A stretch of DNA of 64,000 nucleotides from Methanosarcina sp. KYL-1 (GTDB lineage Archaea > Halobacteriota > Methanosarcinia > Methanosarcinales > Methanosarcinaceae), in contig NZ_VOUA01000005.1 of the NCBI RefSeq assembly GCF_024372725.1, positions 1 to 64,000 on the forward strand. The letters are read 5' to 3'. The translations under genes and the position numbers were made by a program. The notes beneath the pieces are model-generated. The model did not search any database. It was not told the origin of the DNA and saw only the letters and a list, made by a program, of their open reading frames with translations. This document shows positions 53,158 to 56,736 of the stretch, one piece after another; position 1 is the first letter of the stretch, and each line of letters opens with the position of its first letter.

Positions 53158-53718
53158 ATGTCTTTTCTAACCAATTTCCTTTTGGCCTTCGGGCTTGCAA
53201 TGGATGCCTTTGCGGTGTCCATGTCAAGCGGAACCACGATAAGGCCTTTTCGGCTAAATGATGCCCTGAAACTGGCGGTTTTCTTTGGAGGTTTCCAGGC
53301 CTTTATGCCGGTGCTCGGCTGGTTAGGGGGAAGCGCCGTAAGCGGCTTTGTTTCGGACTACGCTCCCTGGCTCGCTTTCGGGCTCCTTGCTTTTATCGGC
53401 GGCAAAATGATTTACGAAGCCCTTTACGGGGGCGATGACGGAAAAGTAAGTTCCCTCAATTATTCCATGCTCTTTTTGCTTGCGGTTGCAACAAGCATAG
53501 ACGCCCTGGCCGTGGGAATCAGCTTTGCCTTCCTGGACACGCCTATCCTCGAGCCGGTAATTATCATAGGCTGCGTGACCTTTTTCATGTCCTTCTGTGG
53601 GGCGATCCTGGGCTACAGGATAGGCCATTTCTTTGAGCATGAAGTTGAAATCCTCGGAGGGGTCATTCTGATAGGGCTTGGTGCGAAAATCCTTGCCGAA
53701 CACCTGCTCTGGATCTGA
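53158..53718 (+). CDS. mntP: manganese efflux pump MntP
   Basis: This is a 186-residue membrane exporter of Mn2+ with six predicted spans. The conserved acidic residues of the pump lie in LAMDAFAVSMSSG (about residue 13) and ATSIDALAVGISFAF (about 113), the paired repeat signature of the family. GGAG precedes ATG 53158. In bacteria mntP often follows a manganese riboswitch; I see no such fold here, only a 13-bp tandem repeat. Manganese homeostasis would fit the oxygen-defence genes at 56.7-63.6 kb, though they are not in the same operon. Confidence 0.93.
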   Translation: MSFLTNFLLAFGLAMDAFAVSMSSGTTIRPFRLNDALKLAVFFGGFQAFMPVLGWLGGSAVSGFVSDYAPWLAFGLLAFIGGKMIYEALYGGDDGKVSSLNYSMLFLLAVATSIDALAVGISFAFLDTPILEPVIIIGCVTFFMSFCGAILGYRIGHFFEHEVEILGGVILIGLGAKILAEHLLWI

Positions 53719-54954: not shown

Positions 54955-55065
54955 TCAATATTCTGCTGTCGTTTCTACCCTTTGAACCTCTCTTCCCTTT
55001 CTGAAAAATTCAAATTGTTCATAATAGCAGGCTCTTTTGACAAGCTCTTCAAAAAACTCATTCAT
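54955..55065 (-). CDS. 36-residue small protein with YYEQFE motif
   Basis: This ORF, MNEFFEELVKRACYYEQFE then FFRKGREVQRVETTAEY, has a strong ribosome site (GGGGGG followed by ATAAATCC before ATG 55065). It is clearly related to the ORF at 56230-56373: both match EFFxxLVxRAxYYEQFE and then FR. The two copies flank the acetolactate decarboxylase gene, on the opposite strand from it. The predicted structure is one amphipathic helix. I do not know the family. Confidence 0.6.
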   Translation of the reverse strand: MNEFFEELVKRACYYEQFEFFRKGREVQRVETTAEY

Positions 55066-55240
55066 GGATTTATCCCCCCTTGAATAATCCTACTTGAATA
55101 CCCATATAAATTTTCTACTTTCTATTTAATAAATATTTGTATCAGTCCTTATATTATAGTTGTCAAATATTTGTCATCAGTAATTCTATTTAATACATGA
55201 ATTCTCTAAAATATTCTCCAACAAAAAGTTATTATGAGGA

Positions 55241-56086
55241 ATGTTAATGAAAAAATACTGTTTGTTCATTATTTTAGCACTTTTTTCAGCTATTTGTGTT
55301 TCCGGTTGTACTGGAAATGGTGAAAGTTTGCCTGAAGATACTTACGGGGATGCACCTCCCGCCGTAGAAACTGTCGAGGCCGGAAACGATGTCCTCTACC
55401 AGGTCTCCACCCTTGATGCCCTGCTCCAGAGCGTCTATGACGGGGTTGTCTCCTTTGAAGAGCTCGAAACCCATGGGGACTTCGGGATAGGGACTTTTGA
55501 CGGGCTTGAAGGGGAGATGCTGGCTCTTGACGGGGATTATTACCAGATAAAAACCGATGGAATTGCCTATCCGGTATCCGGGGAAATGACCACTCCCTTT
55601 GCTACAGTGACCAGCTTTGAAGCAGACGAAAACTTCCGGCTTGGTGAGCCCGTGAACCTCACGGAATTTGAAGAGTATCTGGACTCAAACCTCCCCTCCG
55701 AAAATCTCTTCTACGCAGTCCGCGTGGACGGGAACTTCTCTTATCTGAAAGCGCGGAGTGTACCGAGGCAGGAAAAACCGTATCCAAGGCTTGTGGATGC
55801 AGTCTCCACTCAGGCAGTCTTTGAATTTGAAAATGTGAGCGGCACGCTGGTGGGGTTCAGGACCCCGGAATACGTTAAAGGTGTCAACGTGCCCGGGTAC
55901 CATCTTCACTTCATTACCACGGACAGGGGTGCAGGAGGGCATGTCCTGGACTTCGAACTTGAGGAAGGGGATGCTGCTGTCGACATCACCCGCGCCTTCT
56001 TCATGGAGCTTCCTAAAAGCGGAGACTTTTATGAAGTGGAACTGGGGCAGGATCTCCAGGCTGAAGTGGAAACGGTTGAAAAGTGA
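55241..56086 (+). CDS. alpha-acetolactate decarboxylase with lipoprotein signal
   Basis: This enzyme decarboxylates 2-acetolactate to acetoin. The catalytic domain spans residues 50-275: LYQVSTLDALLQSVYDGV, GDFGIGTFDGLEGEML, RSVPRQEKPYPRLVD, and the zinc ligands in GYHLHFITTDRGAGGH. Unlike most family members it starts with a hydrophobic signal ending in a lipobox (CVSGC, cysteine at about residue 23), so it should be exported and membrane-anchored. ATG 55241 or 55247 may be the start. No acetoin-using gene is adjacent. Acetolactate is made by the ilvB-ilvN enzyme encoded at 17 kb. Confidence 0.9.
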   Translation: MLMKKYCLFIILALFSAICVSGCTGNGESLPEDTYGDAPPAVETVEAGNDVLYQVSTLDALLQSVYDGVVSFEELETHGDFGIGTFDGLEGEMLALDGDYYQIKTDGIAYPVSGEMTTPFATVTSFEADENFRLGEPVNLTEFEEYLDSNLPSENLFYAVRVDGNFSYLKARSVPRQEKPYPRLVDAVSTQAVFEFENVSGTLVGFRTPEYVKGVNVPGYHLHFITTDRGAGGHVLDFELEEGDAAVDITRAFFMELPKSGDFYEVELGQDLQAEVETVEK

Positions 56087-56229
56087 GTTTTATCTGTAAA
56101 ATTAAAATTTTTTAATTTTTAATCTGTCCTTTCTTTCTTTTTCTCTTCTCTTTTTTTCTTTCTTTTTTCTCTTCTCTTTTTCCTCCGCCCTTAACTATCT
56201 TCTTCTATATTTTTTTTCTTCCTTCCCCT

Positions 56230-56373
56230 TTAAAGATTAAATACCGGAACTTTCATTTTCAGGTCCATTGCTGGCATTTCCCTTAACTGTCGGGAGAAGT
56301 TTGCGTTTCTGAAGCTTTCAAACTGTTCATAGTACTGAGCGCGTTCGACCAATCCTTTGAAAAACTCTTCCAT
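56230..56373 (-). CDS. 47-residue small protein, paralogue of 54955-55065
   Basis: This ORF, MEEFFKGLVERAQYYEQFE then SFRNANFSRQLREMPA, has GAGGTG about 7 nt before ATG 56373. It shares the N-terminal EFFxxLVxRAxYYEQFE block with the small ORF on the other side of the decarboxylase gene. The C-terminus differs (methionine-rich, ending KVPVFNL). The conserved block with diverged tails argues that both are real. The function is unknown. Confidence 0.6.
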   Translation of the reverse strand: MEEFFKGLVERAQYYEQFESFRNANFSRQLREMPAMDLKMKVPVFNL

Positions 56374-56736
56374 TATTTTCACCTCTATGTCAAAGGACTA
56401 CTTCAATATTTATTAAGGTCCGCCAAGCTAGGTGAAAGTATTCTGGATCCGGATTTTCAAAAAATTGGCCTTTTAATCTGTGAGGCTATTGATACTGAAA
56501 ATCCAATCTTGAACCCTTTTTCGAGATTTTCAAATTATCTCAATACATTCCAAAAATTATCTTAATATCTTCAACATATTATCTCTATATCTTCAACAAA
56601 TTATCTTAAATACCTGCAAAAAATGACCTATATACCTGCAAAAAATGAGCTGAATACCAGGCAAAAAGGCTGTTTTTCAGGGAAAAATATGGAAAATTTT
56701 TGAAGGCCTGTGGCTACGGGTTTTTGCCCGCGAGGG

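Follow-up and report, generated by a model that had tools for sequence, protein, structure and literature searches.

Two small minus-strand genes of Methanosarcina sp. KYL-1, here called ORF1 and ORF2, belong to a micro-protein family that is previously unrecognised, and ORF2, to judge from the DNA, plainly shares a promoter element with DNA-repair genes. Taken as a whole, the observations are best explained if ORF2 encodes a micro-protein of a DNA-damage regulon, a reading we regard as likely. The genes lie in a window of 64,000 nucleotides (contig NZ_VOUA01000005.1, positions 1 to 64,000), which has the following features.

54955..55065 (including stop codon), minus strand: ORF1, 36-aa paralogue of ORF2 (ORF list)
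55074..55079, minus strand: Shine-Dalgarno GGGGGG of ORF1 (read from sequence)
55104..55110, minus strand: TATA-like TTTATAT of ORF1, without the element (read from sequence)
55241..56086, plus strand: acetolactate decarboxylase lipoprotein, a neighbour only (PF03306, E 2e-85; TIGR01252 above cut-off)
56230..56373 (including stop codon), minus strand: ORF2, 47-aa micro-protein gene that carries the element (ORF list)
56379..56385, minus strand: Shine-Dalgarno GAGGTGA of ORF2 (read from sequence; GAGGTGA-type in most genera)
56409..56416, minus strand: ORF2 TATA-like box, TTAATAAA; the element lies 5 nt upstream (read from sequence)
56422..56440, minus strand: promoter element TACTTTCACCTAGCTTGGC of ORF2 (top match of the element model, E 2.3e-8)

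A micro-protein family of the Methanosarcinaceae

The original prediction described two homologous minus-strand small ORFs of 36 and 47 codons, with strong ribosome sites, flanking a plus-strand lipoprotein acetolactate decarboxylase. That description held: the coordinates are exact, GAGGTGA (ORF2) and GGGGGG (ORF1) are present, and the decarboxylase matches PF03306 and TIGR01252, with a lipobox-like VSGC visible in its sequence. The predicted duplication of a micro-gene with a shared helix and divergent tails is also borne out. The ORF1 protein, MNEFFEELVKRACYYEQFEFFRKGREVQRVETTAEY, and the ORF2 protein, MEEFFKGLVERAQYYEQFESFRNANFSRQLREMPAMDLKMKVPVFNL, are 64% identical over residues 1-25 (E 1.2e-4 in an own-genome search), and their tails give no alignment.

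The suggestion that these genes represent an undescribed small protein family is supported by the spread of their homologues, which occur in 108 of 112 Methanosarcinaceae genomes and in all 14 genera (85 of the 86 good-quality genomes); homologues of ORF2 itself are present in 107 of the 112. No significant family match was obtained in Pfam, NCBIfam, PHROG or PADLOC, PDB sequence and fold searches with the micro-protein returned nothing, and a plasmid search returned zero homologues. A likeness to a rubrerythrin helix (E 0.02-0.04) was rejected as being at chance level. Family members are 24-50 residues long and unannotated, a size of gene that annotation pipelines can miss. Outside Methanosarcina there is mostly one ORF of 24-29 aa, such as MDEYFENLVERANYYEQFEEFVRYYK, while the intact Methanosarcina members found have at least 36 aa. 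The motif lies near the C-terminal end of a ~70-aa protein in the small-genome genus g6 and occurs in tandem in G028, and G029 has five family copies. In an alignment of 38 sequences R11 is invariant and F5, L8, Y15 and E16 are nearly so. Remote matches with short open frames were found in phylum families f7, f9 and f34 at E 4e-5 to 0.04, the search that counts here, since a broadened-profile search of the phylum is circular (members were in the profile). These ORFs are probable relatives of the family, a kinship also backed by the element core upstream of most of them.

Evidence for selection on the protein came from 28 ORF2-type sequences, mostly from Methanosarcina, that were picked by promoter and Shine-Dalgarno sequence rather than by protein similarity, with an open frame and Glu at position 2 required. 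In this set codons 2-23 give a pN/pS of 0.072, which falls to 0.049 when only codons 13-23 are counted, and the variable columns across 21 codons number 5, 4 and 19 at codon positions 1, 2 and 3, respectively. Shifted frames gave ratios above 1 in an earlier set, which had been chosen by protein pattern. Because pN/pS is low and third positions vary freely, the ORF2-type gene is, judged by its codons, a selected protein under strong purifying selection. The same data bear on whether the micro-ORF could be a leader peptide or the marker of a regulatory RNA, with the peptide itself functionless. While the ORF is very short and stand-alone, and a probable small RNA in relatives has the same element, it is the amino acids that are under selection, with third positions free (pN/pS 0.05-0.07), and the downstream gene is inconsistent across genera; we consider a functionless peptide very improbable. 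As for the form of the selected protein, AlphaFold2 run on the single sequence predicts one helix over residues 2-32 of ORF2 (pLDDT ~90 over residues 1-20). A single predicted helix says little about a partner, and a hydrophobic-moment test of this helix was not significant.

ORF1 looks like a derived, dispensable copy, because it is missing the element and because in-frame stops occur in ORF1-type genes of some species. Genes of this type were found in Methanosarcina and genus g5, and as a group they have a pN/pS of 0.20. In-frame TAG or TAA codons were seen in G079 (C2:893648), G090 (C39:4889) and G102 (C246:5433); such copies may be decaying, or TAG may possibly encode pyrrolysine, which Methanosarcina can use.

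The original prediction also linked the micro-genes to the decarboxylase. In Methanosarcina they adjoin AlsD, an FprA-type flavoprotein (FDP) and a rubrerythrin-like gene, an arrangement that would suit small proteins serving either the decarboxylase or a flavodiiron/rubrerythrin oxygen-defence cluster. However, the decarboxylase gene is missing or elsewhere in most genera, and each of the other genera has wholly different neighbours, yet the micro-gene is kept together with its own promoter. Synteny largely refutes a role in decarboxylase function or oxygen defence, which we hold to be a very slim prospect. Because neighbours differ between genera, the micro-gene is, on this comparison, stand-alone, and the decarboxylase is incidental and judged to have no functional link to it. 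The window also contains, at 53158-53718 on the plus strand and near the rubrerythrin-like and flavodiiron genes, what, by our reading of the sequence, looks like an MntP-type manganese exporter. The original prediction missed the stronger link, that of ORF2 with DNA-repair genes through a shared promoter element.

A promoter element common to the micro-gene and DNA-repair genes

ORF2-type genes have a near-invariant element, ATACTTTCACNNNGCTTGGC (also written ACTTTCAC), immediately before the TATA box, and the gap of 5-6 nt between the two is conserved in almost all genera for which sufficient upstream sequence exists. The element is not palindromic. ACTTTC[AG] lies at most 130 nt upstream of 69 of the 82 family starts examined, and the starts without it are mainly those of ORF1-type genes or extra copies. 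ACTTTCA is invariant in 45 of 45 aligned sites, which were selected by motif, in part by the ACTTTC core itself, from the promoters of micro-genes and of repair genes. With up to one mismatch, the element is present in 108 of the 112 family genomes, and a reversed-pattern control gives ~0 matches per genome. Most genomes have from one to a few copies, and the number rises to ~20 in genus g14, where G110 and other genomes with ~20 copies each may have a larger regulon. In the KYL-1 genome TACTTTCACCTAGCTTGGC is the sole exact match, and matches with three mismatches are near the reversed-pattern control. The element may be new, to judge from the open-licence papers searched, in which no description of it or of the YYEQFE motif was found.

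Evidence that repair genes share the element came from a sequence-only model trained on 45 non-Methanosarcina sites. ORF2 ranked first in its own genome (E 2.3e-8), followed by RPA (0.0023), RecQ (0.0044) and RadA (0.0105). DinB came lower (0.0275), after a small ORF of unknown function, a pair of related zinc-type small proteins and an uncharacterised 260-aa protein. The RPA, RecQ, RadA and DinB sites have modest scores, and these matches are not fully independent of the model, since its training took in orthologous repair promoters from other genera. The model also finds RPA, RecQ, RadA and DinB in other Methanosarcina, RadA and RecQ in a genome of the same order (G126), and RPA in family f14 genomes. 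In Methanococcoides/Methanolobus-like genomes (genus names inferred) the element precedes radA, hef, recQ and RPA; copies also lie ahead of a UDG-linked radical-SAM gene, an integrase gene and some genes of unknown function. UvrA (in G046) and RmuC (in G011) are targets as well. The identities of the downstream proteins RadA, Hef, RecQ, RPA, DNA polymerase IV, UvrA, RmuC and rSAM_link_UDG were confirmed with Pfam and NCBIfam.

The nature of these targets also bears on an alternative in which the element belongs to replication genes or cell-cycle-phased ones, rather than to genes induced by damage, and the micro-protein is a cell-cycle factor. RPA, RecQ and RadA work in normal replication as well, and a position beside the TATA box suits an activator of any kind. 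Nevertheless, DinB, UvrA, RmuC and the UDG-linked radical-SAM gene are damage genes, and zero polymerase, MCM, PCNA or FtsZ genes were among the sites examined. We therefore think a cell-cycle role unlikely and favor a DNA-damage regulon.

Not every site precedes a known repair gene: some stand before the gene of a zinc-type small protein, that of a 260-aa protein, an integrase gene or what may be a small RNA. A cysteine-containing small protein (~65-130 aa) with the element upstream was seen in the KYL-1 genome (G000, C3:49134 and C3:63264; L303 and L317) and in G045 (L261), and a 260-aa protein lies downstream of an element-like site at G000 C2:162743 (L304); neither has a Pfam match. In several related genomes (loci L249, L256, L257, L265 and L326) the element precedes, by ~45-130 nt, a conserved non-coding stretch, ACGCCTTTACAAGTTTCAAGGCTAGGTGCCATC, that has a stable fold, often has a T run after it and has no Rfam match. 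It is possibly a damage-regulated small RNA.

A candidate DNA-damage regulon

Because the ORF2 promoter element is common to repair-gene promoters, the data suggest an SOS-like DNA-repair regulon in these methanogens, with the micro-protein as its best-conserved target. The element is common to a recombinase, a translesion polymerase and an excision-repair gene, with radA and dinB in the KYL-1 genome and uvrA in G046. ORF2 very probably belongs to such a DNA-repair regulon, and we expect, with fair assurance, that it is damage-inducible. In the proposed mechanism, DNA damage would cause a putative regulator to act at the element upstream of the TATA box, which would switch on the repair genes and, more consistently than any of them, the micro-protein. 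The helix of the induced micro-protein (F5, L8, R11, Y15 and E16) may then dock on a partner protein involved in repair, replication or division and modulate it, a role toward which we lean only slightly and which is proposed by analogy with bacterial SOS micro-proteins. ORF1 would probably be expressed independently of damage, because its element has been lost.

Whether euryarchaea mount a coordinated DNA-damage response becomes a directly testable question with this element, since radA, RPA, recQ, dinB, uvrA and hef share it and the methanogens that have it are genetically tractable. Its most consistent carrier, a micro-protein under strong selection, would be an obvious candidate effector.

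Comparison with known systems

The Methanosarcina mazei proteins MtrI, MtrR, sP36 and sP26 resemble the micro-proteins in being small proteins of the same genus, and they modulate a larger partner; sP26, for example, has 23 aa and glutamine synthetase as its partner (PMC11957540). MtrI has 68 aa and an N-terminal four-cysteine zinc ribbon, and identity with it was rejected, as ORF2 (47 aa) has zero cysteines and ORF1 (36 aa) has one (PMC12774963). Identity with MtrR was likewise rejected, since that 49-aa protein has no aromatic residues (PMC13370731), whereas F and Y abound in both ORF1 and ORF2, and the 61-aa sP36 is excluded by its published features (PMC10714827).

The damage regulon of Sulfolobus/Saccharolobus is controlled through an archaeal element upstream of damage-response genes, ANTTTC (the DDRE motif), which is bound by Orc1-2 (PMC9738581). 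The ACTTTC of all 45 aligned sites, which adjoins the TATA box on its upstream side, fits that motif, by homology or by chance (PMC9738581); the core itself was among the criteria by which the sites were picked. The element described here differs in that it is longer (ATACTTTCACNNNGCTTGGC), that a spacer of 5-6 nt separates it from the TATA box, and that it precedes the HR/NER/translesion genes radA, RPA, recQ, dinB and uvrA. One report on Sulfolobus after UV includes the finding that repair-gene expression was not raised (PMC2246294).

Halobacterium, from the same phylum, offers a second comparison, in that two element targets are UV-induced there, radA1 by 7-fold and the RPA operon by 1.5-fold (PMC1224876). 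The same study observed no classic coordinated SOS response, archaea are reported to be without LexA-type SOS, and, unlike here, neither a common element nor a micro-protein was shown (PMC1224876). A bolder proposal is that the ACTTTC core is an ancient archaeal damage switch, spanning Sulfolobus and Halobacteriota, that in the latter governs a true SOS-like set (RadA, RPA, RecQ, DinB, UvrA and Hef), with the micro-protein as its dedicated effector, for instance a RadA modulator or a division brake, and the first such in archaea. We regard this as possible but doubtful.

A functional parallel to the micro-protein would be in bacterial SOS (LexA), where RecA/RadA, dinB and uvrA are similarly grouped with a small stand-alone protein. 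Among the bacterial SOS micro-proteins, DinI acts on RecA, while SulA and SidA act on division. The methanogen system differs in that its operator is of another type and its micro-protein is without a family match.
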